A stretch of DNA of 58,023 nucleotides from assembly GCA_026417135.1 (NCBI GenBank), contig JAOADV010000006.1, positions 1 through 58,023 of the forward strand, in the 5' to 3' direction. Positions 5,809 through 21,753 of this stretch are shown one piece after another; positions within the stretch are counted from its first letter, which is position 1; each line of letters opens with the position of its first letter. Both the position numbers and the translations under genes were made by a program. Under the pieces are notes generated by a model that made no database searches, was not told where the DNA came from, and was given only the letters and a program-made list of their open reading frames with translations. Source of the stretch: Ignavibacteria bacterium. Lineage in GTDB: Bacteria > Bacteroidota > Ignavibacteria > Kapaibacteriales > UBA2268.

Positions 5809-6588
5809 CTAAAAAATCAATAACTTATCGATAACTCTCGAACCATCCTTTAAATTAATTACATAAAAATACAAACCCTTCGAAAGAGCTGGAAAAGAAA
5901 TAAAAGATAAATTCTCCCTTAAAAACTCTTCGAAAACAAGATTACCCAAAGAATCAAATATCTGTAAATGTAGTTCCGAAGAATTTGGATTATAAATGTA
6001 TAAATATTTCTCTTCCGATAAATAATTGACCGAAGGGATTAATTCATCCGATTGATTATCGACATTTAAGTTTAGCCTCAAAAGAATTTTAATTTCGAAA
6101 CGGAAATGAGTTACAAATTCATTAGAAATGACAGCGAAATTCGTTTGGCGCATATCTACATCAAGAATATATGGCTCGGTGATTCTGGCATAAACAAATT
6201 CCTCTTTAAGTATGGGCCAACTAAGGCTCAGCCGAATTCCGCTTTCGCGAAACACCCACATATTAAATTTAATAGTATCTTTAACATCCGTAGGAAAAGG
6301 TCGTAAATCTAAGTAGGAAAGGACATTTCCTTCGCGTGAGCTATCGTAGAAAACTAAAAAGCCATAAATTTTGTATCCACTTGGAGGCAAAAAAGGTGGT
6401 AAATCTAATTCTCCTAAGCCAGTATCTAACCCATTTGTAGCATTCTTGTGAAAGCCTAAAACAAGTTTATCGAAAACAAGAGTATCATTACCAATTACTT
6501 TCATTCGAAATCGTAGTGTTTCTTGGAGAAACAAGCAGTTTTGGTTGGTAAAGAAAAATAATAAAAGAACAAATATCAATCTTAACAT
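5809..6588 (-). CDS. Small secreted protein with T9SS-type C-terminal domain
   Basis: 259 residues. A signal peptide (hydrophobic residues about 2-20) is followed by a beta-rich domain of no recognised family. The last 60 residues resemble a type A sorting domain: LHLQIFDSLGNLVFEEFL, then LSKGLYFYVINLKDG and a basic end. It lacks the usual PNP at the start of that domain, so it is a divergent example. A strong ribosome site, AAGGAGG at 6596-6602, fixes the ATG at 6588. A terminator separates it from the large T9SS cluster upstream, so it probably has its own promoter or depends on read-through. It may start the glycosyltransferase operon that follows. Confidence 0.75.
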   Translation of the reverse strand: MLRLIFVLLLFFFTNQNCLFLQETLRFRMKVIGNDTLVFDKLVLGFHKNATNGLDTGLGELDLPPFLPPSGYKIYGFLVFYDSSREGNVLSYLDLRPFPTDVKDTIKFNMWVFRESGIRLSLSWPILKEEFVYARITEPYILDVDMRQTNFAVISNEFVTHFRFEIKILLRLNLNVDNQSDELIPSVNYLSEEKYLYIYNPNSSELHLQIFDSLGNLVFEEFLRENLSFISFPALSKGLYFYVINLKDGSRVIDKLLIF

Positions 6589-6667: not shown

Positions 6668-9600
6668 CTACTTTATAATGTTCAAAACAACAAACTTCGA
6701 TGTATTTCCGACTTTCATTTTGCATAGGTATTGACCACTTGCAAATTCATCTGCATTGATTGTCAATGAATAATCGCCAGCTCTTGTAAATCCGTTCACT
6801 AAGGTTTTGACTTCCTTACCAAAAACATCAACCAAAGTAATTTGAACATCGGAATCTTGCTTCAATGTATATCGCAAAACAGAAGACGAAACAACTGGAT
6901 TCGGGGTAACAAGAAGTTCCGACTCGGAAGCGAGATTAGAAACAAGAACTCGGATTGTGTTGCTGGCAGATGGAATGATGAGTGTATTACTACTGGGAGA
7001 AATAGTCCCAAGAACAGAACCAGTAACCGCATCGACAAATGTATATTCATTAGATGGGTCGCTGATACTAATAGATATTGGGAATGTTACTCCCGATAAC
7101 ACAAAAGTAGGAGCAAGGCTTGTTTCCATAAGGGAGTTGTTTGTAAAGCGTATATCGAAGATTTCAGAAATTGGTAATGGCGGCAATTCGAACATGGACG
7201 GTTCAGCTTCAGTATTAAACGCAAGGTACAATGTTTTACTATTTTGTGCGTTGTCCGAAATCTCCATTTTAACGCTTTGTTCTTTCATTAAATCCCTTAT
7301 GCTTGGTGCATCATTGGTGATTGCTTTTTCGCTGCGAGCCAAAAGCAATAAATAACCATGGGCATCAGATTTAATCCAATAGCCCAAACCCGGACGCAAC
7401 TCGGAAACTTCTTCGTAACCGCGATTAGTTTTGTAGGACCAAACCCCGTTTCGTCGAACTTCAACTGGGTTAGGCGATTCAAGACCAAAACTTGAGAACG
7501 CAATGTTTCGAATGGATAGAGGAGTCGAGACACAACCAATTGTATTCCAACCCGGATAAATCTTGACTGAATCTCCAGAAAAGACCGAAATTTCTGGGAT
7601 AAAGGAGCCAGCAAATTTTCTATCGACTCTGTCGCTATATTTTACAAAATATCCAACTCCAACCCTCAGCAATTCATCAAATTGATACTGATTTTGGGAC
7701 CAGAAAAACGGTTTATTAATAGCATTCGGATAAACCACATCCCATTCGTTATTGATTGGACGAACTGGTAACGAAAGGAAATTCCATCCTTTCTTGATTA
7801 TTGGCTGGCCGAATTCATCAACATAGTCGATAACTCTTGCTGGGGTATATTCAATTAAGAAAGAGCGTACTCTTGGGTCGTCAATCGTATAAGAGAACAT
7901 TGTACCACCGACGATTGTTGCTCGTCGCATATTAACAGCGGGGAAAAGCTGACCGTTAGCAGTATCGCGTAGGAATAGATTTGCACCATCGGGGAAATCG
8001 CGGATATCCCAGTAAATAACTATTGGGTAATAGGACGGGTCTTCTGCTTTAAATCTTACCAAGAAAATATGCGATTGCATAGTATCGTGCATATTACGAA
8101 TATCGCGAGAAATACACCATTTAGGTGTTCCATCTGCATTGTCGTCGTCTGGGCTAAAATTACCAAATCCGTTCGCCACTTCTAATTTAACATTTTGAGG
8201 TGCATTTGGAGGTGGGAAAAATCGAGCCCCAAACTCATTATCTGGCATTGGGTAATCGAATGCATATTCTCCAAATAAAGTATCAACTCCAATTGTAGCG
8301 CGATGCCCAGTTCCAAAAATTAATTTAACAGGATTGCCAAAGCCAACTCGAGGAACAATTGTCAAATTAATTCCAGCAGCTTTGCTCGATTCAAACCACT
8401 CAATTGGATTACGGAAATAAATGAACGTTACTTTCACCCTTACTGGGGAAATTAAAGCTGAATGAGATTTGAAAGTAATGTAGCCAACATAAATACCTGT
8501 AGGTTCAGGACCTGGGTTTTGAATAGCTGTCGGGTCGCACTGAATTTCGATATGAACTTCGGGGTCTGAGTCAATTCTACGACCCCAAATTGGAGTACCA
8601 ATTATTTCACCTAAGATACCATTATCAATGAATGGAATGAAACCTTTTCGTGTTCGCATTGGAAATGGAGTTTTTGCACGTGCTCCAGGAGGTACCCAAG
8701 TTCTCACAAACAACCAGGGCTCACTCGTCTCCACCTCAATGTCAAGTAATCTTGAAGTTGGAACTTGGTTCCAAAGCCGGAAACTTCGTTTTCCCCAAGG
8801 CAATGGAGTGGGAGCAGCAGAATCTATTGTAATAGGGTCTCGCAATTCATACAAAGAGCCATCGTCGGAAATAGGAGCTATTTGTGGAACCAATCCGATT
8901 GCCCTTTCAAGGATAAATCCAAATTGTGGGACTTGGTCACTTATTCTTAAGAAAACAACACCGGGATAATGTGGTTCGGTATTCCACACTGGTGGAAAAG
9001 GTTCATTATTTACGCCTGCTAACCCAGCAAACTTATCTGGGTCAGGAAAATCTCGATAAACGTCGCGCCCTTTCCAGGTAGGTCTATATTTTGCAAATGG
9101 AGCCTCTTTTCTAACATTCAAATCATTATACATTATTGTATCTGTTCCAATTATGAGTGGAGTATTACCAGCAAGCCCAATGGGTTCACCTGCTCTTGGA
9201 ACTAATACGAAACGAATATACAAGAACACCTTGAAATCATTCGAGGGAGGTAATGGTTTTGTCGAAACACCTGTAATCTTTATAGCGCGCCCTTTCGAGT
9301 AGTCGGCATATGGAGTTAAAGGATTTAAAAATTTTCTATATGTTGTATCCCTTTCATCCATCCAAGAAATACTGAAGTCTTTCGCCAAGGTATGATACTT
9401 ATACCTTTCGTCATTAAAGTAATCCAATTCTCGTGAACCAAAAGTTTGTACTCCAACAGCTCGAATTGCGGAAGAGTCGTACAGCACTTTAAAACTGAAA
9501 CTTTTTATTGGGTCGGCAATGTAAATATCCTTGGTTTCTTCTCTTGTATACCAACCATTTTCGATAAAAACAGGAACTAAAAACTCTCTTGGCTTATTTG

Positions 9601-9814
9601 GGTCAACGGAAGGTGGTATCCAAATTCTTCCATCTGGATACCAATTAGCATCCCAATCATCACTACCACCGTTAAGCGAAAGCCGTGGGATGCTTGGGAT
9701 ATTACCAGTTGCTGGCGGTTGAGCATTAATGTCATTAATTATCAGTATAAAACCGAACGTAAGAGCAACAATCAATAGCCTAAAGAAGCCATTGTAAAAT
9801 GTCTGCTTATTCAT
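6668..9814 (-). CDS. Large T9SS-secreted surface protein with N-terminal cohesin-like region
   Basis: 1,048 residues. A signal peptide ends near residue 31 (INDINAQ). Residues about 75-210 read like a cohesin-type fold: FVPVFIENGW-like opening, FSFKVLYDSSAIRAVGV, and FKVFLYIRFVLVP. The middle is beta-rich with no family I know, including a WNFLSLPV region and WNTIGCVS turns typical of FCB surface proteins. The C-terminal 80 residues are a clear type A sorting domain: LLVTPNPV, VQITLVDVFGKEVKTL, and FASGQYLCKMKVGN. The ATG at 9814 has GGAGG 5 bases ahead and overlaps the previous gene by 8 bases, so the pair is probably translationally coupled. The cohesin reading is by eye. Confidence 0.85.
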   Translation of the reverse strand: MNKQTFYNGFFRLLIVALTFGFILIINDINAQPPATGNIPSIPRLSLNGGSDDWDANWYPDGRIWIPPSVDPNKPREFLVPVFIENGWYTREETKDIYIADPIKSFSFKVLYDSSAIRAVGVQTFGSRELDYFNDERYKYHTLAKDFSISWMDERDTTYRKFLNPLTPYADYSKGRAIKITGVSTKPLPPSNDFKVFLYIRFVLVPRAGEPIGLAGNTPLIIGTDTIMYNDLNVRKEAPFAKYRPTWKGRDVYRDFPDPDKFAGLAGVNNEPFPPVWNTEPHYPGVVFLRISDQVPQFGFILERAIGLVPQIAPISDDGSLYELRDPITIDSAAPTPLPWGKRSFRLWNQVPTSRLLDIEVETSEPWLFVRTWVPPGARAKTPFPMRTRKGFIPFIDNGILGEIIGTPIWGRRIDSDPEVHIEIQCDPTAIQNPGPEPTGIYVGYITFKSHSALISPVRVKVTFIYFRNPIEWFESSKAAGINLTIVPRVGFGNPVKLIFGTGHRATIGVDTLFGEYAFDYPMPDNEFGARFFPPPNAPQNVKLEVANGFGNFSPDDDNADGTPKWCISRDIRNMHDTMQSHIFLVRFKAEDPSYYPIVIYWDIRDFPDGANLFLRDTANGQLFPAVNMRRATIVGGTMFSYTIDDPRVRSFLIEYTPARVIDYVDEFGQPIIKKGWNFLSLPVRPINNEWDVVYPNAINKPFFWSQNQYQFDELLRVGVGYFVKYSDRVDRKFAGSFIPEISVFSGDSVKIYPGWNTIGCVSTPLSIRNIAFSSFGLESPNPVEVRRNGVWSYKTNRGYEEVSELRPGLGYWIKSDAHGYLLLLARSEKAITNDAPSIRDLMKEQSVKMEISDNAQNSKTLYLAFNTEAEPSMFELPPLPISEIFDIRFTNNSLMETSLAPTFVLSGVTFPISISISDPSNEYTFVDAVTGSVLGTISPSSNTLIIPSASNTIRVLVSNLASESELLVTPNPVVSSSVLRYTLKQDSDVQITLVDVFGKEVKTLVNGFTRAGDYSLTINADEFASGQYLCKMKVGNTSKFVVLNIIK

Positions 9815-10973
9815 AAATCCTCCAATTGTTTAAACAATTACTAACTAATTTTATCATTTTCAAAATTTTGTTGTCATACTTATTTTTAAAAACAATTAAA
9901 TAAATCCCATTGGGTAAATTAACATCTTTCAATCTGCAATAACTACTTTCGACTACCAATTTTCCCATTAAATCATATATACTTATTAAAAAATCATCAT
10001 AGTAATCTATTTTATAAAACTTATTATCACCTTCGACTATTGAGATAGGTTTATCATAAAAAACAATAGTAGAGTCAAACCCTAATTTCGCAATACACTT
10101 ACAAAACAAATTAGTATTCGGCACAATTCTTATCTGAGCAAATTTATCTTCGCCAATAAAAAATGCTTTAATCTTTAAACTGTGATTTGCAATAGTATCA
10201 TTTAATAACTTTAAATGAGCTTTATACCCGTTTTGCATTTTTTCAACAAACATAACTTCGATGCCTGGTCCAACGCTTGTGACTTCTTCAAAACCTAACA
10301 AAGTGGTATCCAGAAAAAAATCTATTTCAAAAAATTCTACCCTCGATTTTTTGGGCAGAAAAACTTGCGTAACAAAATCAAAACGGTTCAGAGTGGTTTT
10401 AATGGTATCGTCAGAAACATTTACCAACAAAACTCTTTGTTCTTTTGGCAAAACTTCTCCAATCAAAAGAGTAGGAATCAAACTATCAATGATTACTTTA
10501 AACTCATCGGTAAATTCAATGTAATTAATTTTGAAATGAGCTGTATCTGGGCATAGAGTTTTCCACAGTCCATTAAATGCAACAAGTGGTCTATCCCCAG
10601 AAATCGGAATCATACCAAACGAAATAGCATAGCCATTAATTTTTCCTTCTTTTGAATTAATCGTAGCGGATTTGTTGTCGAAAAATTCACTTAAAGTTCC
10701 AATATACAATACATCAGTAATCTTGACCTTACTCGTATCGAATTGTATCTCGTAATTAAACCCGAAGAGAGAGTCGCTTTGTCTAACTCTGCCAACACCC
10801 ATTACGAGAATGAATCTCTTTTCGTTCTCATTCCCGCACACATCAATTTTCAAAGAACCATATATACTTAATTCGCAATTTACTCTTCTTTGGGGGTAAA
10901 GAGCCTGGCTTATTAGCAAAATAAGCCAGGCAAACCCCAAAAACTTACTTAACAATAACGAGCTTTTTAACAA
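9807..10973 (-). CDS. T9SS-secreted protein with cohesin-like modules
   Basis: 388 residues from a TTG at 10973; no ATG is available near the N-terminus. A signal peptide (FLGFAWLILLISQALYPQ) is followed by two beta-rich modules. The first has FNYEIQFDTSKVKITDVLYI and a later SFGMIP stretch, which look cohesin-like. The second has FEIDFFLDTTLLGFEEV. The last 60 residues resemble a sorting domain (YDDFLISIYDLMGKLVVES, then LPNGIYLIVFKNK). The start region overlaps the upstream gene's stop by 29 bases and also contains a perfect hairpin within the signal-peptide codons. An alternative TTG at 10940 would still leave a short signal peptide. Start choice is uncertain; the gene body is not. Confidence 0.8.
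   Translation of the reverse strand: MLKSSLLLSKFLGFAWLILLISQALYPQRRVNCELSIYGSLKIDVCGNENEKRFILVMGVGRVRQSDSLFGFNYEIQFDTSKVKITDVLYIGTLSEFFDNKSATINSKEGKINGYAISFGMIPISGDRPLVAFNGLWKTLCPDTAHFKINYIEFTDEFKVIIDSLIPTLLIGEVLPKEQRVLLVNVSDDTIKTTLNRFDFVTQVFLPKKSRVEFFEIDFFLDTTLLGFEEVTSVGPGIEVMFVEKMQNGYKAHLKLLNDTIANHSLKIKAFFIGEDKFAQIRIVPNTNLFCKCIAKLGFDSTIVFYDKPISIVEGDNKFYKIDYYDDFLISIYDLMGKLVVESSYCRLKDVNLPNGIYLIVFKNKYDNKILKMIKLVSNCLNNWRIYE
10903..10931 (-). terminator. Terminator-like hairpin inside the next gene's signal-peptide codons
   Basis: A perfect 12-bp stem, GCCTGGCTTATT at 10903-10914 with its complement at 10920-10931, encloses a 5-base loop. It begins 13 bases after the stop of the dockerin-like gene. 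On the minus strand the tail is TCTTTACC, only weakly T-rich, so it may cause partial termination, protect the upstream mRNA from decay, or restrain translation of the overlapping gene. Confidence 0.6.
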
Positions 10974-12798
10974 CGCTTGTTCCGTTCGATATCAAACGAA
11001 CAAAATATACGCCATTAGATAAATCGCTGTCTCCAAGTAAACTGTTCAATTCAATTGCAAATTGAGACACAGTTTCAACAGCATAATTTCTATTAGCTAA
11101 AATCTTTCCAGTATTATCAGCAATTTCTAACTGATAATTACCAATTTGATTCAAGGTTAGCAATATTTTAGGCGAAGAGCTAAAGTTATCGACGATTGAT
11201 AGAAAATCATCTGCATTTCTTGTAGTCGTCAACACAAAATGTGGAATTTGAATATTATCGTTAAATCTAATCTCTTTGAAGTTTAAATGGTTTAGGTTAT
11301 CTCTTAATTTTATATATCCTATCGGTTCCGAATCGTCAAAAGATATACTACCAGCAAAAACACCCCTATTATTGAAGTTTTCAACCAATAAACCATTTAC
11401 GTTACTTTCCAATTCAAAACTATTGTCCATTTCGATAAACAATGAAATCGGTCCATTCACAGTGCCATTTAAATAGATAGGTATCCTATAGCCATCGTTA
11501 GTTAATTCAGGTTCTTTAAATATAACCTTATCGGCTAGTTCTATTGTCCCAATTCTGCCATATTGTGGTATTGTATCGTAAAGCCAAGGTAATTCTGGCA
11601 ACCTTCCAGATATATAATGTAATATCAAAGCAGCATCATATTCATTTGCTCTAAAGAATATTTGTTTTAGAGAACCAATTTCTGCAGGCAGACTATCTCC
11701 AAAATACTTATTTCGCCAGCGTATATCTTTTCGAACACCAAATTGGTCATAATAATATCGTCCATTATGATTAACATCACCGTGATAAGCGGCTCTTCTG
11801 CGTACACTATCCAAAGGAATACCAGTAGCAATACTTCTCATAATTATACGAGCATCAGTAACAGTAACATATCGGCTTTGGGGCATATTATAATGTTTTC
11901 TCGCCCATCCTTTAGACAAATCAACGTCCCCATCGCCCCAGAATTCCTCGACATTATATCGAGTTAGTGCTCGGAAACGAATTCTTCTATCAGTTCCGCC
12001 TGAAGGTGTCCATTCATTCGTCAAACGTTTGCTTGTTCGTGCAATATAGGGGTCTTTTTCAAATTCAAGTCCATTAATAAAGTCTGCAGGAGAAAAATCC
12101 CCTTTAACGCCTACCGAAGCATTTCGGGTAACGACACGAGTATCGGTTGTAAACTCATTGCCACCAATCTGACCATAAGCAAATTCAATTTCTCCTTGGG
12201 CGCTGAATGGGTCTTGAGACTTATAAAGTCTCAATTGAAATGTAGCAATGCTCGACTTAATATTTCTATCATTTACATTTAGGAATCTCCATTCGACGAT
12301 AAAAATCCCACGGTCGGGGTCGGATTTGTAGTGAATCTTCGTCTGCTTGTATTGATTCATAACTTGTTCTTGGTAGGTTCTATAGACGTGGTCACCCCAG
12401 AAAGGAGCAAGCACATTCTTTGGATAAGATGGGTTAACGTCAAATAAAGCGGTTGGGTCCTTTGCTGGAACATACGGAGGAAGACTAAACGTAACAAAAC
12501 CATTCACACAAACCCATAGTTTAGTGAATATTTCCCCAGCAAATTCAAATGGAAACCCAATATCGATACCAGTTGGATAAGAATAACCATCGTCTAAGTC
12601 CTGTAGCCACATAGGTGGCAAACCAAACGCAGATGGAGGAATTTCAATACCATCCTCCAATGGTTCGTAGGGAACGTTGCGAATCAGACGAACGGTATCG
12701 AAATCACCGTAAACTTGCGCATTCGAAACACTCTGAATGGATAACAGTAATGTAAAAATTGCAGTTATCCCAAGAGCTACTCGGAAAATTTTCTTCAT
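10945..12798 (-). CDS. T9SS-secreted protein with NIDO-like, dockerin-like and cohesin-like regions
   Basis: About 617 residues. The ATG at 12798 has AGGAG 8 bases upstream (12806-12810); longer frames start without one. A signal peptide ends at VSNAQ. Residues about 55-150 resemble an extracellular nidogen-like domain (GFPFEFAGEIFTKLWVCVNG). Residues about 288-400 hold two dockerin-like calcium loops with helices: GDGDVDLS then VTVTDARIIMRSIATG, and GDVNHNGR then NEYDAALILHYISGRL. Each is split by an insertion between loop and helix. A cohesin-like module follows (RIPIYLNGTVNGPISLFIEM). The last 80 residues form a divergent sorting domain (YQLEIADNTGKIL, LSNGVYFVRLISNG). It lies between the giant gene and the smaller cohesin-like gene in one operon. 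Confidence 0.85.
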   Translation of the reverse strand: MKKIFRVALGITAIFTLLLSIQSVSNAQVYGDFDTVRLIRNVPYEPLEDGIEIPPSAFGLPPMWLQDLDDGYSYPTGIDIGFPFEFAGEIFTKLWVCVNGFVTFSLPPYVPAKDPTALFDVNPSYPKNVLAPFWGDHVYRTYQEQVMNQYKQTKIHYKSDPDRGIFIVEWRFLNVNDRNIKSSIATFQLRLYKSQDPFSAQGEIEFAYGQIGGNEFTTDTRVVTRNASVGVKGDFSPADFINGLEFEKDPYIARTSKRLTNEWTPSGGTDRRIRFRALTRYNVEEFWGDGDVDLSKGWARKHYNMPQSRYVTVTDARIIMRSIATGIPLDSVRRRAAYHGDVNHNGRYYYDQFGVRKDIRWRNKYFGDSLPAEIGSLKQIFFRANEYDAALILHYISGRLPELPWLYDTIPQYGRIGTIELADKVIFKEPELTNDGYRIPIYLNGTVNGPISLFIEMDNSFELESNVNGLLVENFNNRGVFAGSISFDDSEPIGYIKLRDNLNHLNFKEIRFNDNIQIPHFVLTTTRNADDFLSIVDNFSSSPKILLTLNQIGNYQLEIADNTGKILANRNYAVETVSQFAIELNSLLGDSDLSNGVYFVRLISNGTSVVKKLVIVK

Positions 12799-12849
12799 TT
12801 TTATTCTCCTAATTTTATTGTATAACATTTCTAACCTCCATCAAATTTT

Positions 12850-12873
12850 GGCTTGCCCCGGAAGGGGCAAGCC
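12850..12873 (-). terminator. Hairpin between the giant gene and the dockerin-like gene
   Basis: A perfect 10-bp GC-rich stem, GGCTTGCCCC at 12850-12859 with its complement at 12864-12873, closes a GGAA tetraloop on the plus strand. It lies 11 bases after the giant gene's stop. The minus-strand tail AAAATTTG is not a true T run, so full termination is doubtful. It may instead set unequal expression of the two genes. Confidence 0.6.
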
Positions 12874-12883
12874 AATTCACTTT

Positions 12884-15800
12884 TTATCTAATAATGTTTA
12901 CTGGATAATTATAAACATCTGTCCCGCTCGTCAATCTTAAGAAGTAAACGCCATTTGCAACTTCATTTGTAACTTCCCAATATTCGGTGTATTGTCCTTG
13001 AGTGTAATATCCACTAACTATTGTCGACACAACCTTTCCAAGAGCATCAACAAGTTCAATCTTAACAAATCCATCAGTGTTTATACCAAATGAAACACGA
13101 GCAGTATTGCTAACTGGGTTCGGACTTACCTGGCTAATGCCAAATGTTACTCCTGGCAATTGTTCGACATTGCTAATCCAGTCGTGAACAATTAGGAATC
13201 CAGCAACTACGTCGCGTCCAATTTGCACTCTCCAATATTGACCTTCATCTATGATTCTAATATCGCCATCTTTTGGATAACCTTCTCCTGTCTTCATATT
13301 GTAATTGAATATGTTCCCATTAGACCTATCATCACGAATGAACCATTGACTACCAGTTGGATTTCTTTGTGCGTCATTCTTATCGGGTATTTCATCCTTA
13401 CGCCATCTAATAGATACTGGATAGAAAGTAGAAGTATTTCCCACAACTCCACCAGCTTGGAAGCGACCTTTGTAAATTCTAAAGTCAGGTAAATTCCTTG
13501 CTCTTGGGAAGATATTTCGATGCGTTCCGTTCGTTAATGGGACTGACCATCGAGCATCGAATACGTCAATTGGTGGGATTGCTGGCAATTCATATTCGCA
13601 GAAGACAGCATCAAGAGTACCAACAGCTTCACCATCAAGACCATCACCAGTTGTTGCATCGCGAGGCGCAGTTCCAAAGTAGAGCAATTGCCAAGCACTC
13701 TTTCCATCACCCGGTATATTGCCGGGGAATGTATTCTCAACTCTTAAAGTGCAGACAAAGTCAGTTGGTGCCGATATTTGAACCCTGTAAATCAAAGTAT
13801 CTCTTGCACCACTAGCGTCTGTTACCTCAACAAATATCGAGACTTTACCATCTGGGTCGCGAGCATCTGGGAATGCTGTTGTCTTAATAAGAACCTTAAC
13901 CGTATCCTTATCTCGTATGCCTCGAATAACGCTAGGTTCAATAGTAAATCCAGCAGGTCTAATAACTCTCAATGTTAATTCTTCGGTTGGGTCGCCAGGA
14001 ACACGGCCACGACGTAAGTCATAATCCCAGACATAGAGTGTATCTTCATAACTCTTGCCAATATCGACACATCTAACTTTTGGAGCATTAGTAATTCGTG
14101 GTTTATGATTTGTAGAATCAACAAACAGGCTAAGCACTTTTATTGCAGACAATTGTCTTTCGTCGCCGACAATATCCCAAACTGCTACAACAACTTGCTC
14201 AGTTCTTGGTGCATCTTTGACTCCCGGAGTTCCATAGAGCAAGCCACTTGTTGGATTAATTTTCAACCATCGTGGGGTTGTTTTCAAATTGGAAATATTC
14301 CAATAACCAGCTTCTGGGAAACAGGGGTCTCGTGGTATTGAATCAAGTGGATATTCAGGATAAATAAGTTCGAACTCGTGTGTTTGCCCGAAGTTCGGGT
14401 CGAATACTTTAATAGCTTTACTTGAGTCTATTAATTGTGGATTATAATCAACATCCTCTTTTGCTGGCGGTAGGGACTCAGTAATAATTATTGGGGCAAC
14501 ATTAATAAAGACTGGCATTGTCATAAAGTTAATACCGCCGTGCCCATCATTGACGACGATTGTGAAAACTGTATCAGTATTTAATGCTTGATTATAACGC
14601 ACTGGTTGAGATGGTTTTAAGAGGTCCCAAGCAACACTTGAATCGATACGGATATTAATTTGACCTCGTGTTGTCAAATCAACCCCGAATGGGTCTGCAG
14701 TACCATCAGTTCCATATTTCATCAGATATTGATTGCCCATCCAAACAGGTCGAGTTTGTGTGATAACTTGCTCATTCTTTATCCCATCTTTGTTCTGGTC
14801 GTATGTTGTAGTGTCAATCACGGTGGTATCGCCGCCGCCGCCCCACCAATCACGATTACGTATAGCAATATTCATAAATCCATAGGCGGTCTTTCCAAAC
14901 CGGAAATCCCAACCGCGAGGTTCAAGAGTTTCGGCTGCTAAATCCTCTAATTCATCATCCGTATTGAAATCAACTTGGAATCTCAATTTATTGGTCAAAT
15001 TAGCTTTTAACTTATTGCCTTCTTCCTCAGTCGTCATACCACAGGTGTAAACCGAGGGTTTATAGATTACATAAGGTACAAGGTTAGTCCCAGCACGGTC
15101 AATTCTCTTATAGATTGTTTCAGCTTGTGCATCTGCTTCGGCCTCGGTTGCTACCCAATCCATAAACCTTGGGATACTATCGATAACAAATATTCTAAAC
15201 GAATACTCAACAAAATATTGACCTCCATAATGTATCGTATCCTGTTGCAAATATCTTGCATTTGTAACATCATACCTGTAAGCATTCAAGTACGGTGCGA
15301 ATATGTATATGAACTTATCGATAGTATCTTGTGGAGCGCCAATAGCACGCAATGAGTCGATAACTCTGAAAGCTGGTGGATAATTTTCAGCTCGAACGGT
15401 AACCCATTCTCCACCTGGTACTACGTATGGGTTTATTGGTCGACCACGAAATACAATATATCCAAGAGCATTATCTTTGGGGTTAAGCACGGTTTGGTCA
15501 CCAGCAGGAATTGTATCGACAAGCAACCACCTTGCTAAAGCAGTAGTTGGGTCAACATTCCAATGATAAGTAAGACGGCTATACCGATTTGGCTGTAGGA
15601 ACGAGCGCGGGTCGAAGTATTTATTTGTATCCATAGCCGTAACAGCAGCAATACTATCTCTTCCTTGACCTTCTTCGGGTGCCAAATCTGAATATGTTCC
15701 TTTATATTGAGGATATTCACGGTCTTCTGTAAGAAAGATTGTATGTAAGAATTCAACAAGTTTCAAAGTATCCAACATACCTCTGCGGGATGGAAACTCG

Positions 15801-18800
15801 GAAGGAACAATTTTTACTATCGTATCCTTTTGCAATTTTACCATATTTCCAGTGAAGACAGGAGGTTCGGTTGAACGAACAATTCTGAACGAAATTCCTT
15901 TGTCGAAGGCTGGAACTTCACCTTCTCTCCAAAGAACTGTTCGAGAAACTACTCGAACAATATCACCAGCGTTTACAGGAAGAGCTCGGTAACGTTCACC
16001 AGCATAGAATGTTTGATTACCTTGGTTGGATGGAGGCATTACAGGTCTATTCGAAAAGAGATTCGGCACACTCCCCAATCCTGTGGTGGAAGCGTGATAT
16101 CTTCGACCAAGCAATGCACCGCGGTCTTCTCTTTCTGGTTGGAATCTTAATTGCCTTAGCAAGAAGGCACCAACACCAAGATTATAAAGTCCTTCCTCTG
16201 TTCGTCGAATGGTTGTGTTCGGGTTTCTTGCAGATGAGTCTGGCACTAATTCAACCCGAGCACGGAATATTTCTCTATATGGGGCATTTTCATCGACTTG
16301 TTTCAAAGGAACTCTGATATAATCACCCGTGGTCTCATTAATAATAAAGAATACTGTTTCATTTAGTAATCTTGGGTCGTGATTTGAACGTTCAGCTAAA
16401 CCTTCGTAATTACTTTGTGCTTCAAGGAAGAGAGGATATCCAATTGGATGATAATAATTACCCTCTTCATCAGGTCTGAACTCATCCTGCATAGCAGCTA
16501 TGAATGGATAAATTAATTGGCCATTTGCATCTCTTGCTTCCGCAACAAATGGGTCGCGAATCCAGCGCTTCACATATTTGCCAAAGGATGGAAAGCCGGG
16601 AACATTGAAGGTTCTCAATCTCGGTGGAATACCAACAGCAAAATCTTCGATTGGTACCATTCTTCTATTCGAGTAGTCCGCAACCTTAATGTCTGTCCCT
16701 TTATCGTAAAGGTCATAAACAAGTCCTGACATTAAAACTTTTTCTGGAATACTGTATTGTCCAGGGGTATTCTCATCTGCACCATTTTGTAATGGTATCG
16801 GTCTATAAGTAAATTTATGTATCGATTCGAAAGGACCTTGTTCGCGTGGGTCAGCTGTTTGTGGGAACATAAATTTCATGTAAGTTTCATTCTTCGGATT
16901 AAACTCAGAGTCTACAAAGAAGGTCTCCATAAGAGCTGGTTGGGCATAGATTGTATCGGTTCCTTGTATTGCAATAATTTTTCTTTGATAAACTAACGAC
17001 AACACGACATTTGCTTCGGTTCTACCCCAATAATTTCCACGCAAAGTGTCTGTCCCACCGAATCCTTCTTTTTTACCAGAAAGAACTCCCTTAGTATTGG
17101 GAGCGTCGGGTAAACGAATAAGAAATCTTGCTTTATTGTTATAAATTGAATTAGCTGCTTCTGGGGCAAGGTGAGATGGAAGTGGTCCAACAATCTCACC
17201 ATAAAGTATCGCACCAGCCAAATCACTTGATGCAGAATTAGCGACAATGTTTCTGTTATTGTCCCTTCTCAAAGGTCCAGAAATAACATTCATATCGTAG
17301 CCAATCTTCGAATAGGCTTCGTTGCCAGTAATTAACGACCTATTGAACACAAGTCGTAGGTTATAATTATCAGAGTAAACAGCAGCCCCAGTAAATGCTT
17401 TGTTATTTTGGATTCTTACACGATTGAAGAAAATTGAATCTACACGATTAGCCCTATCATCATCGACAACATCAAGAATATAAATGGCACCTCCAAGACC
17501 AACACCATTTTCGGGTAAATCTGTGTCCCAATTCTTGCGAACAACATCAACATATCTTGCGTCGGAGGGTTTAATGTCGTTCCAAGTATTTCCTCCATCG
17601 AGTGTCCGCTTCAACAAACCATAATCTCCAGCTATCACACCCCATTGAGATGTTGGGAAAACAGCTGAATAGATACTATAATTAGTCCCAACATTTAGTG
17701 GTGTCCAATTAGTTCCAGCGTTTGTTGTTTTCCAAGCTAATCCATACTCACCAAAAACATATCCAATGTTAGCCGAGGTGAAAACTATCTTATTGAAACT
17801 ATATTGCAAATCTTCAACTATCTTGTCCCAAGAAGCACCACCATTGTTTGTTTTAAGGATTACTCCCCAATGGCCAACTGCATAACCAGTATTTAGGTCG
17901 GTGAAATAAACATCGCGGAGACTTGCATAAGTATTTGCGAAACGAACATCCCAAGTAGAACCACCATCGGTGGTCATAATAATTGTTCCAAGGTCCCCGA
18001 CAGCAAAACCACGAGTCGCCGAAACAAAGTAAACAGCTCGTAAATTATTGTTTGTAACTCCAGTGCCAACTTGGACCCAAGTTTCGCCCGCATCAGTGGT
18101 TTTTAAAATAGTACCAAAAGAACCAACAGCAAAGCCAACATTAGTCGTCGGGAAATAGATATCATTCAATGCGTAAGAATAAATAGCTGGATTCACCTCA
18201 CGCCAAGTGCCACCATTATTATCGGTTTTCAATATAACCCCGCGGTCCCCAGCTATGAAACCAAGATTCCCTCTGAAAGTAACAGACATTAATCTATATG
18301 GCTGGGAGTAATTATTGTATTGCCATCGGTCGCCACCTTGGGTTATCTTTATTATTGTACCAGATTGACCAACAGCAAATCCGGAGGTCATATCAAAAAA
18401 GGCAACATCGTATAGTTTGTTTACGGTAGTTTCGGTACCCTTTTCGACTTGTGTTGTACCACTACCACTTTGAGTTTGCAATATCTTTTCTTCAACAATG
18501 ACTTCGTTATCCAAAAATTGAGTTAACATTCTTGTATCTGGTGGATAAGCAGTAGATTGCCAAGTGAATACATCATTTGTAGATTGAAAATCTACCGCTA
18601 AAAGGGTGGCTGGGTCAACCACAACATTATCAACATCACTTACAAAATACCTTCTCGTATTTGTTTCTGGGTTGACCATAGCAATTGCACCGCCATTACC
18701 ATTGTAAACCTTATTGGCGATGAATTGAACCCCTTTAACTACATTCAAATCAGCATTTATAGAATAAATAGCACCGCCTCCACGAATAAATGGTTTATTA

Positions 18801-20950
18801 ATATCGGCAACCCCTTCGCCAACAGTGTTATTTACAAATTGAACTCTACGAAGTTCAACAGCTTTTTGTCGCGAAGGAATAAGTAGAGAACCTTGTGGAA
18901 CGTGAATAGTGATGGCACCACCACCGAACCCAGATTTATTGTTTTCGAAAATAACTGGATAATTTCCGCCATAACCAATAAGACTATTTGCTTCGACGCC
19001 ACCAGCCCCAACAATGCTCATATTTCTTGCTGTATAAATTGCTCCACCAAACGCAGTTGCTGTATTACCAACGAATTTAATGTCGAAGCCATAATTCCGA
19101 GTCAAAGGAGTTACATCTGAACCACCAATAACTGGGGACATTTCGGGGTCGGTATTTCCATCGACAAAAATAGCTCCACCAGAACCAGAACGGTTGTTAG
19201 TAAAGTGTGTTTCATTTCCGGGAGCAGTACGCTCTGGACCACCTCTTACTTGTAATCTGCCAAATGTATTTTCGCAAAAGATTGCACCACCACGTGAAAA
19301 GTACCCACTATTCGTTCCAGTAATAGAATCTTGTAAATACTTAACGTAAGTTTCGTTTGAAATAAATTTACCAGCAACAATCAATGAAGTATTTGCCCCA
19401 ACATAAATAGCTCCACCACGAGCACCAAACGTATTTCCATGATTTTGGTAGTTACTTGCAACGTTTCCAATTGCTTCGTAGGTATCAGCTGTCGGGAAAG
19501 TAATCAAACCTCTTGTTGTCGTATTAACAGAGTTGTTTATACCTATACCAACTTCAATTCTCGTGTCTTGGCCGTACTGGTCGTTCCTTCCAGAAATATA
19601 GATAGCACCACCAAAAGCAACGTTACCATACTGCTGGGGATATGCAGCGGGTTCATCCGTAGCGTCAGTAACAACTGGAACGGGTGGATTTCCAATCAAA
19701 CGAGTTTTAACATTTGCAAGCTGAACATAATTACGTTCGAATTTAACATTTCTAATACGCCCCAATAACAATGCCAATCGTCCATCGTCAATTGCTTGCC
19801 TTTGGAAACTATTTAAAGGTTCCGAAGTTGACTCGTCAATTAAATCATATGCCTTAATAGGATAGTTACTCAAAATTCTCGAAATAGAACCATCTTTTTC
19901 TCGATAGTTTGGATTTTTGTTTGAAGGGTAATTTGGCAAAGTATTAATAATCGGGTCGAAAGGATAACCTTCTGGAGCTTGCAATAGGGCTAATGCCCCA
20001 CCACGATGCCGAGCCATATTATTACGGAACTCAACATTAATCAGCCAAAGCCTCGAAGACAACGAAGTTATAGCACCACCAGTACCGTTCGTTAACTTTG
20101 CAAGTTCTCTATTCAAATTAGTCCAAGTCTCGCCCAAATTGGTACCATAAAATGGTTTATCACCAACGGTTACATCTTTTCTAAACCCTTCGAAGGTACA
20201 ATTTCTAAAGAATGCGGCTCTTGCTCCAGGAAGAACAACAATATGCCCCCATTCTCTTGAAAAATTGTTATCGGGTTGTCCAATAAATCTAATTCTTGCA
20301 GGTGTGATATTTACACTACGTCCTCCAAATCGACGCCAGGGATATAACCACAAGTTTAAATCGTTTGCTGGGTCGAACTGAAGTCGAGCTGCATAGAACA
20401 TTATTGCATATTCGAAAGGTAATATAACTTGTTGCGGACTAAGCGGACCAGGAACTTCTGGTAAGTTACTAAATCCTCGAAGATTTCTATTAAAAATTAC
20501 ACCGAACATATAATTATTCTTAGCAGAATGAATTGTTAAATCCCTTACCGTCCCAACATTCACAACCCCTGGATGCAAGAAGTAATTTACATCCGAATAG
20601 CCATCATAAGATTGAGGGTTCGAAGGAGAACCTGGTGGGTCGGTTGGCCTTAAACCTCCCGGATTAGCATTATAAGTTGCAGAAGCAAGACCATCGGCAA
20701 TGATGCGACCGCCGACAGAATCAATTAATCTACCATTTGGGTAGAACAAGATTGTCGTCCCAGGTTCGATAATAAGAGTTCCACCAATTACATAATCACG
20801 ATTAATTACATAGATAGTGTCCTTGACAAAAATTCGAATCTCATCGGGTGCAACGCGGCCTGATACAAATGCTTGCGGCTGTGCATAAGCATCAAATGTT
20901 AGAAAACCTAACAGAATCAAAAATAAACCCAAACGAAACAATCGTTGCAT
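12884..20950 (-). CDS. Giant T9SS-secreted protein: beta-helix interrupted by a beta-propeller
   Basis: 2,688 residues. A signal peptide ends at FDAYAQ. Residues about 280-800 form a right-handed beta-helix with repeated F-x-x-N and GGAI motifs like chlamydial Pmp repeats (FTNNRSGSGGAIF, FVGNTATAFGGAIY, FENNKSGFGGGAI). Residues about 835-1130 are seven Ycf48-like propeller blades (GFAVGSFGTILKTTDAGETW and relatives). Beta-helix sequence then resumes (GVGLGGAIYI, VRIQNNKAFTGAAVY, GNYWGR). A long beta-rich region follows, then He_PIG-like Ig modules (WLKINPTSGLLYGTPG near 2235), then a type A sorting domain (VSPNPVSNTARVSF, VKIELVDALGKVVSTI, VANGVYFLRL). The ATG at 20950 has AAAGGAGGAG 2 bases ahead. 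Function is unknown; a surface stalk or adhesin is inferred. Confidence 0.92.
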   Translation of the reverse strand: MQRLFRLGLFLILLGFLTFDAYAQPQAFVSGRVAPDEIRIFVKDTIYVINRDYVIGGTLIIEPGTTILFYPNGRLIDSVGGRIIADGLASATYNANPGGLRPTDPPGSPSNPQSYDGYSDVNYFLHPGVVNVGTVRDLTIHSAKNNYMFGVIFNRNLRGFSNLPEVPGPLSPQQVILPFEYAIMFYAARLQFDPANDLNLWLYPWRRFGGRSVNITPARIRFIGQPDNNFSREWGHIVVLPGARAAFFRNCTFEGFRKDVTVGDKPFYGTNLGETWTNLNRELAKLTNGTGGAITSLSSRLWLINVEFRNNMARHRGGALALLQAPEGYPFDPIINTLPNYPSNKNPNYREKDGSISRILSNYPIKAYDLIDESTSEPLNSFQRQAIDDGRLALLLGRIRNVKFERNYVQLANVKTRLIGNPPVPVVTDATDEPAAYPQQYGNVAFGGAIYISGRNDQYGQDTRIEVGIGINNSVNTTTRGLITFPTADTYEAIGNVASNYQNHGNTFGARGGAIYVGANTSLIVAGKFISNETYVKYLQDSITGTNSGYFSRGGAIFCENTFGRLQVRGGPERTAPGNETHFTNNRSGSGGAIFVDGNTDPEMSPVIGGSDVTPLTRNYGFDIKFVGNTATAFGGAIYTARNMSIVGAGGVEANSLIGYGGNYPVIFENNKSGFGGGAITIHVPQGSLLIPSRQKAVELRRVQFVNNTVGEGVADINKPFIRGGGAIYSINADLNVVKGVQFIANKVYNGNGGAIAMVNPETNTRRYFVSDVDNVVVDPATLLAVDFQSTNDVFTWQSTAYPPDTRMLTQFLDNEVIVEEKILQTQSGSGTTQVEKGTETTVNKLYDVAFFDMTSGFAVGQSGTIIKITQGGDRWQYNNYSQPYRLMSVTFRGNLGFIAGDRGVILKTDNNGGTWREVNPAIYSYALNDIYFPTTNVGFAVGSFGTILKTTDAGETWVQVGTGVTNNNLRAVYFVSATRGFAVGDLGTIIMTTDGGSTWDVRFANTYASLRDVYFTDLNTGYAVGHWGVILKTNNGGASWDKIVEDLQYSFNKIVFTSANIGYVFGEYGLAWKTTNAGTNWTPLNVGTNYSIYSAVFPTSQWGVIAGDYGLLKRTLDGGNTWNDIKPSDARYVDVVRKNWDTDLPENGVGLGGAIYILDVVDDDRANRVDSIFFNRVRIQNNKAFTGAAVYSDNYNLRLVFNRSLITGNEAYSKIGYDMNVISGPLRRDNNRNIVANSASSDLAGAILYGEIVGPLPSHLAPEAANSIYNNKARFLIRLPDAPNTKGVLSGKKEGFGGTDTLRGNYWGRTEANVVLSLVYQRKIIAIQGTDTIYAQPALMETFFVDSEFNPKNETYMKFMFPQTADPREQGPFESIHKFTYRPIPLQNGADENTPGQYSIPEKVLMSGLVYDLYDKGTDIKVADYSNRRMVPIEDFAVGIPPRLRTFNVPGFPSFGKYVKRWIRDPFVAEARDANGQLIYPFIAAMQDEFRPDEEGNYYHPIGYPLFLEAQSNYEGLAERSNHDPRLLNETVFFIINETTGDYIRVPLKQVDENAPYREIFRARVELVPDSSARNPNTTIRRTEEGLYNLGVGAFLLRQLRFQPEREDRGALLGRRYHASTTGLGSVPNLFSNRPVMPPSNQGNQTFYAGERYRALPVNAGDIVRVVSRTVLWREGEVPAFDKGISFRIVRSTEPPVFTGNMVKLQKDTIVKIVPSEFPSRRGMLDTLKLVEFLHTIFLTEDREYPQYKGTYSDLAPEEGQGRDSIAAVTAMDTNKYFDPRSFLQPNRYSRLTYHWNVDPTTALARWLLVDTIPAGDQTVLNPKDNALGYIVFRGRPINPYVVPGGEWVTVRAENYPPAFRVIDSLRAIGAPQDTIDKFIYIFAPYLNAYRYDVTNARYLQQDTIHYGGQYFVEYSFRIFVIDSIPRFMDWVATEAEADAQAETIYKRIDRAGTNLVPYVIYKPSVYTCGMTTEEEGNKLKANLTNKLRFQVDFNTDDELEDLAAETLEPRGWDFRFGKTAYGFMNIAIRNRDWWGGGGDTTVIDTTTYDQNKDGIKNEQVITQTRPVWMGNQYLMKYGTDGTADPFGVDLTTRGQINIRIDSSVAWDLLKPSQPVRYNQALNTDTVFTIVVNDGHGGINFMTMPVFINVAPIIITESLPPAKEDVDYNPQLIDSSKAIKVFDPNFGQTHEFELIYPEYPLDSIPRDPCFPEAGYWNISNLKTTPRWLKINPTSGLLYGTPGVKDAPRTEQVVVAVWDIVGDERQLSAIKVLSLFVDSTNHKPRITNAPKVRCVDIGKSYEDTLYVWDYDLRRGRVPGDPTEELTLRVIRPAGFTIEPSVIRGIRDKDTVKVLIKTTAFPDARDPDGKVSIFVEVTDASGARDTLIYRVQISAPTDFVCTLRVENTFPGNIPGDGKSAWQLLYFGTAPRDATTGDGLDGEAVGTLDAVFCEYELPAIPPIDVFDARWSVPLTNGTHRNIFPRARNLPDFRIYKGRFQAGGVVGNTSTFYPVSIRWRKDEIPDKNDAQRNPTGSQWFIRDDRSNGNIFNYNMKTGEGYPKDGDIRIIDEGQYWRVQIGRDVVAGFLIVHDWISNVEQLPGVTFGISQVSPNPVSNTARVSFGINTDGFVKIELVDALGKVVSTIVSGYYTQGQYTEYWEVTNEVANGVYFLRLTSGTDVYNYPVNIIR

Positions 20951-20952
20951 AA

Positions 20953-20962
20953 CTCCTCCTTT
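20953..20962 (-). promoter_or_regulatory. Strong Shine-Dalgarno site deciding the giant gene's start
   Basis: AAAGGAGGAG on the minus strand, ending 2 bases before the ATG at 20950. The longer frame beginning at 20974 would include this site in its coding sequence, so the ATG at 20950 is preferred. Confidence 0.7.
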
Positions 20963-21012
20963 AATTCCTAACAATTGTTAATAAAATATATTTCATTGTT
21001 TAAAAAATTGCA

Positions 21013-21045: not shown

Positions 21046-21753
21046 TTACTCAATTATTATGCCAAGTCTTACAAGACCGGCTTTGGCTAAACCAACAAAT
21101 TCCGATTGATTATTTCCTATAATCGTTCTGTAAAGCTTCTCTGCTTTTTCTTTCTTCCCTAATTTTTCCAGACACAATCCTTGGAAAAACATATACCGGT
21201 CCTTAACAACTACGGGCAAAGCATACGAAGATGCCATTTCATAATACTTCTCGGCTTCACTGTAATTCCCTAAAGTTTCATAAGCTACTCCCAAACCCGC
21301 GCAAGCACCTTCGAGTACTATATTTGATTTTGATTCCAAAGCAATCTTAAAATACTCAATAGCCTTTTGCGGTTGGTCAATTTGCAAGTAACAATTCCCA
21401 GCATACAAAGCGGCAACATTTGCTGGTGGAACACCCTTATATAAATTAACTATCTGAACCAAACCAATTACTTCTTCCCCTCGGATTTGTTTCGTCTTAT
21501 CACCATTTAATGCTCGCTCGTAATCGGCATTTTCCAGATATGGTAAAATACGCGATATTGCTACCGATGCTTTATTTTCAGCCTCCAATTCCGATTTGGA
21601 AGCAAAATATCTATATACAAGGATAACCAAAACAATAGCAATTAGCGAACCAGCAGCTATCAAAACAATTTTTTGGTTCTCCTCGAGAAACCTTTGTATC
21701 CCCGAAGAACTTTTAGCCAAACCTTCAACTTCTTTTGATTCCAAAATCTTCAT
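21046..21753 (-). CDS. Membrane-anchored TPR protein (YfgM-like)
   Basis: 235 residues. A short cytoplasmic tail precedes one membrane segment at about residues 28-48 (IVLIAAGSLIAIVLVILVY). The rest is a helical tetratricopeptide region: AALYAGNCYLQIDQPQKAIE, GACAGLGVAYETLGNYSEAE, and FFQGLCLEKLGKKEKAEKLY. The layout matches YfgM-type inner-membrane proteins that associate with SecYEG chaperone networks, but no partner is proved here. Its position just upstream of the T9SS cargo cluster, and downstream of tatC, would suit a role in envelope protein export. A candidate promoter lies at 21992-22021. Confidence 0.8.
   Translation of the reverse strand: MKILESKEVEGLAKSSSGIQRFLEENQKIVLIAAGSLIAIVLVILVYRYFASKSELEAENKASVAISRILPYLENADYERALNGDKTKQIRGEEVIGLVQIVNLYKGVPPANVAALYAGNCYLQIDQPQKAIEYFKIALESKSNIVLEGACAGLGVAYETLGNYSEAEKYYEMASSYALPVVVKDRYMFFQGLCLEKLGKKEKAEKLYRTIIGNNQSEFVGLAKAGLVRLGIIIE

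Follow-up and report, generated by a model that had tools for sequence, protein, structure and literature searches.

Five type IX secretion cargo genes kept in a fixed order in Ignavibacteria encode cohesin-type domains and a double calcium-loop module

A minus-strand block of type IX secretion cargo genes

The stretch analyzed here (hereafter, the window) comprises 58,023 nucleotides of an Ignavibacteria bacterium genome (GenBank assembly GCA_026417135.1, contig JAOADV010000006.1, positions 1 to 58,023). It hosts a block of five consecutive minus-strand genes, termed A to E, whose products end in sorting domains of the type IX secretion system (T9SS), together with a TPR gene upstream of them. 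Our data show that the order of these genes is conserved across most families of the home order, that C and D encode cohesin-type domains, and that the product of B contains a conserved double calcium-loop pattern. According to the open reading frame (ORF) coordinates, the block consists of the following genes and sorting domains (protein lengths in amino acids, aa).

21046-21753, minus strand: TPR gene upstream of A; matches Pfam TPR families and has a single N-terminal hydrophobic stretch (by eye)
12884-20974, minus strand: gene A, 2696 aa, with the ATG at 20950 as the likelier start; giant beta-helix protein (PMP-type repeats) with a T9SS tail
12911-13129, minus strand: T9SS sorting domain of A (33.4 bits, six-frame search)
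10945-12828, minus strand: gene B, 627 aa (617 aa if started at its second Met, 12798); consists of a nidogen-like domain, a dockerin-like module, a beta-sandwich and a T9SS tail
10954-11166, minus strand: T9SS sorting domain of B (34.3 bits, six-frame search)
9807-10973, minus strand: gene C, 388 aa; cohesin-like N-terminal half, possibly cohesin-like second half and T9SS tail
9849-10019, minus strand: T9SS sorting domain of C, weak (23.9 bits in the six-frame search, 19.5 bits in the protein scan)
6668-9814, minus strand: gene D, 1048 aa; N-terminal domain with a predicted cohesin fold, further beta domains and T9SS tail
6689-6910, minus strand: T9SS sorting domain of D (30.8 bits, six-frame search)
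5809-6588, minus strand: gene E, 259 aa; lies downstream of D and is the fifth gene of the block with a T9SS tail

The genes are closely spaced, with 71 bp between the TPR gene and A, 55 bp between A and B, and 79 bp between D and E, and the ORFs overlap by 29 nt at B-C and by 8 nt at C-D. In the protein scan, the sorting-domain model TIGR04183 (curated cut-off 23 bits) gave 27.5 bits for A, 30.2 for B, 26.0 for D and 27.1 for E, and the tail of C exceeded the cut-off only in the six-frame genome search. The initial annotation, which had described four minus-strand T9SS cargo genes, thus holds for A, B and D and weakly for C, and the unit is larger than it stated, since it contains five cargo genes plus the TPR gene. 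The Pfam tail model PF18962 matched all five proteins below its cut-off of 27 bits (19.1-26.3 bits). Such tails are common in the home genome (75 TIGR04183 matches at E<=0.001); the block is the sole run of more than two matches in that genome that lie on the same strand at spacings of <=9 kb.

Single-protein searches of A to E returned above curated cut-offs only PMP repeats and a Ycf48 propeller (Pfam) and the T9SS tail and PMP repeats (NCBIfam). No Pfam model for a hydrolase, peptidase or carbohydrate-binding domain was reported in these proteins at E<=10. A cellulosome was accordingly rejected as an explanation of the block, as neither database placed an enzyme or carbohydrate-binding module (CBM) above cut-off in A to E. 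The description of A as a giant beta-helix and propeller protein was borne out: its beta-helix repeats match PF02415 (23.4 bits, cut-off 20.6) and TIGR01376 (23.9 bits over four stretches, cut-off 15), and the propeller lies as follows.

17555-18424, minus strand: Ycf48/BNR beta-propeller of A, residues 851-1140 (PF14870, E 6e-32)

Among the 37 A ORFs of at least 1900 aa, the propeller was detected in 16 of the 17 belonging to the home family, whereas all 20 from other families lack it. The beta-helix parts join almost without a gap in several other genomes, which suggests that the propeller is an insertion.

The order of the block is conserved while its flanks vary

The order TPR-A-B-C-D-E was found at loci from 9 of the 10 families of the home order, as well as in three sister-lineage genomes. 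Among the 123 genomes of the order, matches at E<=0.001 were obtained for A in 123, D in 123, B in 107 and C in 97, although these counts are overstated because some matches represent tails, the propeller or the N-terminal domain alone. For a stricter count, B and D were paired using the best B row per genome plus a second copy in genome G035, with B accepted to E 7.7e-33 and D to 2.4e-81, which dropped the weaker B rows of G053, G108 and six genomes of family f7 (as listed, N-terminal part only). This yielded 100 B places in 99 genomes and 105 D places, with two B lacking a D and seven D lacking a B. Both genes share a contig in 88 of the strong pairs, which come from 87 genomes because one genome has two copies, and every one of these places D on B's strand and no more than 6 kb downstream of it; in the other 10 pairs, B and D sit on separate contigs. 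Conservation of the four-gene order had been set beforehand as a refutation test for the initial annotation, and these pairs, together with the family and sister-lineage counts, reveal such conservation.

Adjacency was judged in 80 fetched loci, which were chosen for the presence of B, so that the counts are conditional on B. At every judgeable locus, neighbors adjoin on one strand (A-B 36/36, B-C 77/77, C-D 75/75, D-E 39/39), and median gaps are 2 nt for B-C and 19 nt for C-D. Gene E was found at all but one of the 40 operon loci fetched. The TPR gene and A share a strand in all 34 loci that hold both, with a gap of -200 to 500 bp in 32 of them. The flanking genes, in contrast, vary: among 40 loci, a tatC homolog adjoins the block in two, which belong to the home genus, and a glycosyltransferase in 22, although a few of the 40 loci end too early to reveal their flanks. 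General synteny was therefore set aside as an artefact behind the fixed order, and since the flanks change while the order of the block is kept, the conserved unit is the block and not the region.

In a 395-genome sample of the phylum, the strong B matches outside the order, among the matches listed, come from G241, G274 and G314, all of the same class, and every other listed match outside the order stops before the second calcium loop of B. These three genomes have the TPR gene, A, B, D and E arranged as in the home block. Gene C was matched in G241 and weakly in G314; in G274, a two-cohesin protein is encoded at its place. G314 also contains a paralog of B (L292:8647-9852, 401 aa) composed of the nidogen-like domain and a tail, without the calcium module and the sandwich. 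Within the order, the ten f7 genomes lack the calcium module of B (nine are listed without a match, and the tenth is absent from the matches). G035 carries two operon copies on contig C1, near 2079509 and 2132256, in opposite orientation and ~50 kb apart.

A scan of named genomes identified 112 B relatives, and 49 of the 80 listed are labelled Kapabacteria, Kapaibacterium or Ignavibacteria/-ae/-ota. The remaining listed relatives carry names of Bacteroidota, Chlorobi groups or unplaced bacteria, and a few of the labels appear to be wrong. From these names we infer that the order carrying the block corresponds to the Kapabacteria.

Cohesin-type domains in C and D

Cohesin-like regions had been noted by eye in C, D and B. 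They have the following extent in C and D.

10446-10886, minus strand: cohesin-like module of C, residues 30-176 (hhalign; Pfam Cohesin in some relatives)
10074-10448, minus strand: second half of C, residues 176-300, candidate for a further cohesin-like module (hhalign 43-47%)
8921-9703, minus strand: domain of D with a predicted cohesin fold, residues 38-298 (structural comparison; hhalign 94.1%, E 1.2e-7)

When the window's five proteins were searched singly against Pfam at E<=10, neither the cohesin model PF00963 (curated cut-off 24.1 bits) nor the dockerin model PF00404 (22.9 bits) was reported, with filters that drop most matches above ~0.1; of the models named in the initial annotation, only TIGR04183 was recovered. 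We compared alignments of the relatives with a cohesin profile derived from the order's own cohesins (29 loci, all outside this operon). The N-terminal half of C matched this profile at 96.3% by hhalign (E 1.8e-9; reversed control 0.2%), and the reversed and unrelated control blocks of the comparison reached <=2.1%. In addition, PF00963 was detected in 14 of 79 C relatives at E<=1 (best 1.3e-4), and the C protein of G111 exceeds its cut-off (26.1 bits). These profile matches support homology of the N-terminal half of C to cohesins. A PDB profile search of C also returned the cohesin 2xdh (E 0.067), which aligns to the tail region and was discounted as support, and CD4 (E 0.012).

For D, the evidence comes mainly from its AlphaFold model (mean pLDDT 85.5). 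In the structural comparison, 18 of the 50 listed rows for the N-terminal domain are cohesin entries (Z 9.6-10.4, 129-144 residues, root-mean-square deviation 2.5-3.9 A). These 18 constitute every row starting at D residues 34-42, and all are cohesin or cohesin-dockerin/scaffoldin entries. A Z of ~10 is weak by itself, as it lies near the warning level of the tool and unrelated complement domains equal it on the T9SS tail. We assign a predicted cohesin fold to the N-terminal domain of D because the rows on residues 34-360 are uniformly cohesin, rather than because of the Z value. The Pfam cohesin model detected only one of 30 D relatives (E 0.061), the D alignment holding 30 of 76 D rows. Foldseek placed D among generic beta proteins at low TM-scores, including two S-layer proteins, and cohesins appeared only in the second structural comparison; a PDB profile search of D yielded T9SS tails, FlgD domains and weak others. 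The D domain is the better conserved of the two (mean commonest-residue fraction 0.46, compared with 0.39 for that of C).

A conserved double calcium loop in B

Upstream of its sorting domain, B is divided as follows (617-aa numbering).

12004-12621, minus strand: nidogen-like (NIDO) domain of B, residues ~60-265 (PF06119 in relatives)
11593-11946, minus strand: dockerin-like double calcium-loop module of B, residues 285-402 (two loop-helix units)
11224-11565, minus strand: beta-sandwich of B, residues 412-525, possibly cohesin-like (hhalign and AlphaFold strands)

PF06119 was detected in 20 of 72 B relatives (best E 1.9e-6), and none was reported for the window's own B. Eight B relatives of ~900 aa with a doubled N-terminal domain were left out of the B alignment, and the alignment of the module holds 35 of the 72. 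Family f9 is characterized by such B proteins of ~900-950 aa, produced by doubling of the N-terminal domain (L144, L145, L146, L148, L153, L186-L188).

The two calcium loops proposed from the window sequence represent a real, conserved pattern. The first reads D291-D293-S295...D315 in the window protein and D291-x-[DN]293-x-[ST]295...D315 across relatives; the second reads D341-N343-N345-G346...D388 and, across relatives, D341-x-[ND]343-x-[NSDT]345-G346...D388. D291, D315, D341, D388 and G346 are invariant in all 72 relatives, and in 70 of the 72 each of the eight positions (1, 3, 5 and 12 of each loop) is occupied by a residue type that can coordinate calcium. This pattern scored 0.986, compared with 0.40 for the next best among 520 registers of equal spacing. 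In the AlphaFold model of B (mean pLDDT 88.2), helices start at residues 313 and 386, just ahead of D315 and D388, giving a dockerin-like loop-helix topology.

The module was found in 98 of the 123 genomes of the order, and the listed places are all B except for one stray copy in G119, so that we rejected the idea of a common cargo module. The stray copy lies near the end of a 1785-aa ORF (L358:2-5356, minus strand) that runs off its contig and in which a T9SS tail was not detected. There, the module comes after a choice-of-anchor I domain (NF038117 501.5 bits, PF22494 526 bits) and precedes sequence that resembles the B sandwich (by eye). This single transfer behind a choice-of-anchor I domain hints that the module serves attachment, i.e., as an attachment cassette.

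The sandwich of B matched the cohesin profile at 63% (hhalign, E 7e-5; reversed control 0.4%), which weakly suggests that it, too, is cohesin-like. The structure search of B was dominated by the C-terminal domain (mostly residues 504-617), with no dockerin or cohesin among the matches listed, and it neither supports nor excludes either fold. Comparison of B with PDB by phmmer gave two chance matches (E 0.17 and 0.29), and a PDB profile search gave T9SS tails, FlgD domains and a weak S-layer chain (E 0.025).

A putative surface assembly and alternative explanations

Given the secretion tails, the fixed gene order, the cohesin-type domains of C and D and the calcium-loop pattern of B, we postulate that A to E form one operon for a multi-subunit surface assembly with at least one calcium-dependent contact of cohesin/dockerin type, the likeliest of the readings considered, which we hold tentatively and rate as plausible, if somewhat short of probable. 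The five proteins would be made together, exported via the T9SS, held on the outer surface through their tails and joined to one another there. The double calcium-loop module of B may act as a dockerin-like plug, with the cohesin-type domains of D and/or C as its sockets, and the long beta-helix of A would provide the principal surface for structure or contact. Between the two sockets, D is slightly favored because it is better conserved than C. The role of such an assembly would be structural or adhesive rather than enzymatic. We can also imagine a more specific form of this proposal, in which the Kapabacteria possess a non-enzymatic surface machine or coat of five T9SS subunits, locked by calcium through an uncatalogued split-loop dockerin and inherited as one operon, which we regard as possible but unlikely. 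The corollary that this coat is the T9SS counterpart of an S-layer or adhesion complex, across the order and its sister lineages, appears doubtful to the same extent.

Several results weigh against a calcium-dependent plug and socket within the block. The dockerin identity that the initial annotation gave to the B module did not hold: at E<=1, PF00404 recognized two relatives among 72 (lowest E 0.094), three sister-lineage B proteins fail the model as well, and a sequence link to dockerins was rejected at 2-23% by hhalign against profiles from 27 dockerin loci of the order, with three near-duplicates left out. The loops are also non-canonical, with 17-25 residues between positions 5 and 12 in loop 1 and 39-158 in loop 2, where the canonical number is 6, and the two halves of the module match each other at only 11.5% in profile comparison. 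The module could thus be a structural part within B. On the side of the sockets, the mean column identity of C is 22%, a sign of fast evolution that is odd for a conserved socket, and of the sister-lineage proteins at its place one (L290) reaches 47.8 bits with the Pfam cohesin model over two stretches and the other two have no match. The cohesin-like blocks barely match one another (first block of C with that of D 21.5%, first with second block of C 1.4%, B sandwich with either first block <1%). Against a non-enzymatic role stand sub-cut-off NCBIfam matches, to a glycosylhydrolase family in the A propeller (33.8 bits, with 175 needed) and to peptidase families in the A and D tails. Furthermore, the block had been called self-contained, which is unproven: Pfam dockerins above cut-off occur in 74 and cohesins in 66 of the 123 genomes, at listed places mostly in other genes. 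As such domains are common, partners may lie elsewhere. Collectively, the observation behind the initial annotation is confirmed, and is stronger than first stated, and its interpretation is partly supported.

The main alternative to the calcium-dependent contact accepts a surface complex but takes the B module as a folded spacer packed on B's own domains, with assembly proceeding via the beta-sandwiches or the A beta-helix. The failure of the dockerin models and the long inserts in both loops agree with this, the gene order would be fixed irrespective of the type of contact, and the sequence behind the stray module in G119 is, by eye, sandwich-like as in B. It accounts less readily for the cohesin-type domains encoded in both neighboring genes and for the transfer of the module to an unrelated protein, and we consider it improbable, albeit conceivable. 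A looser arrangement, in which the block encodes co-regulated cargo for related tasks side by side on the surface (e.g., adhesins or sensors) without any complex, is more unlikely still. T9SS cargo is plentiful in the home genome, and co-expression alone can conserve operons; however, the order itself, beyond mere proximity, is kept over nine families and the sister lineages despite changing flanks, and B-C and C-D are packed tightly or overlap. Such packing is usual for subunits of one complex.

The block could also supply accessory parts of secretion or attachment, such as a platform on the surface onto which the cell's other dockerin-bearing proteins dock. The constant position of the TPR gene beside A would suit such a platform, as would the abundance of dockerins in the order and a 451-aa protein of the home genus (L354:4664-6019) in which both a dockerin (28.9 bits), split by an insert into two halves, and a T9SS tail (25.7 bits) exceed their cut-offs. 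Nevertheless, the home genome search returned no dockerin above cut-off, C and D carry one or two cohesin-like modules each instead of long scaffoldin arrays, and the T9SS component models were not reached in the protein scan (PorU on the D tail, 10.3 bits of 420 needed), making a platform very improbable. In the home genome, a 467-aa protein (L353:4633-6036) resembles L354 by eye and is itself without a Pfam or NCBIfam match, and over-cut-off cohesins are encoded by genes outside the block. Many genomes of the order have reading frames of ~450-545 aa with a dockerin match, and the N-terminal part of these proteins appears cohesin-like by eye.

Relation to known cohesin and dockerin systems

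A T9SS cellulosome-like complex has been proposed, from genomes alone, for Candidatus Stygibacter of the Cloacimonadota (PMC8542988). It resembles the block described here in having a surface cohesin protein with a T9SS-type C-terminal domain and dockerin-bearing partners, and it differs in that a 3,755-aa scaffoldin carries the cohesins in tandem together with CBMs and that the dockerins are borne by hydrolases and peptidases. The present block, by comparison, comprises five proteins in a fixed operon, with no enzyme domain above cut-off and an aberrant dockerin-like module. Cohesin and dockerin proteins that are non-cellulosomal have been described in Archaeoglobus fulgidus and ANME archaea (PMC9012536 and PMC11452385). 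They share with this block the use of cohesins and dockerins outside cellulose breakdown, and the A. fulgidus cohesin 2xdh is among the structural matches of D. They are, however, archaeal, and the ANME proteins vary considerably among close relatives (PMC11452385), in contrast to the fixed set found here throughout an order.

Type I dockerins (PF00404) are characterized by a duplicated F-hand motif (PMC4728124). The module of B likewise has two repeats of a calcium loop (D-x-[DN]-x-[DNS]...D) and a helix, and it differs in the long insertions within both loops and in lacking a match to the Pfam model. The choice-of-anchor I proteins (NF038117, PF22494) are related to the block insofar as one of them precedes the stray copy of the B module, and differ in that this is one protein in 1 of 123 genomes, outside the operon. 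Judged by titles and the starts of abstracts, none of the open-licence papers found points to such a block; the few on Kapabacteria in connection with T9SS or surface proteins deal, by title, with other subjects, and none came up that links this group with cohesins.

If the proposed assembly is real, a whole order of uncultured bacteria would share a dedicated outer-surface assembly, in which cohesin-dockerin logic builds a conserved surface structure instead of gathering enzymes. This would also explain why five cargo genes keep a single fixed order despite low sequence identity. The block supplies concrete domain pairs for a calcium-dependent contact with an unusual dockerin.

The window contains another T9SS cargo gene.

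37082-39961, plus strand: T9SS cargo gene, 959 aa, with BNR repeats

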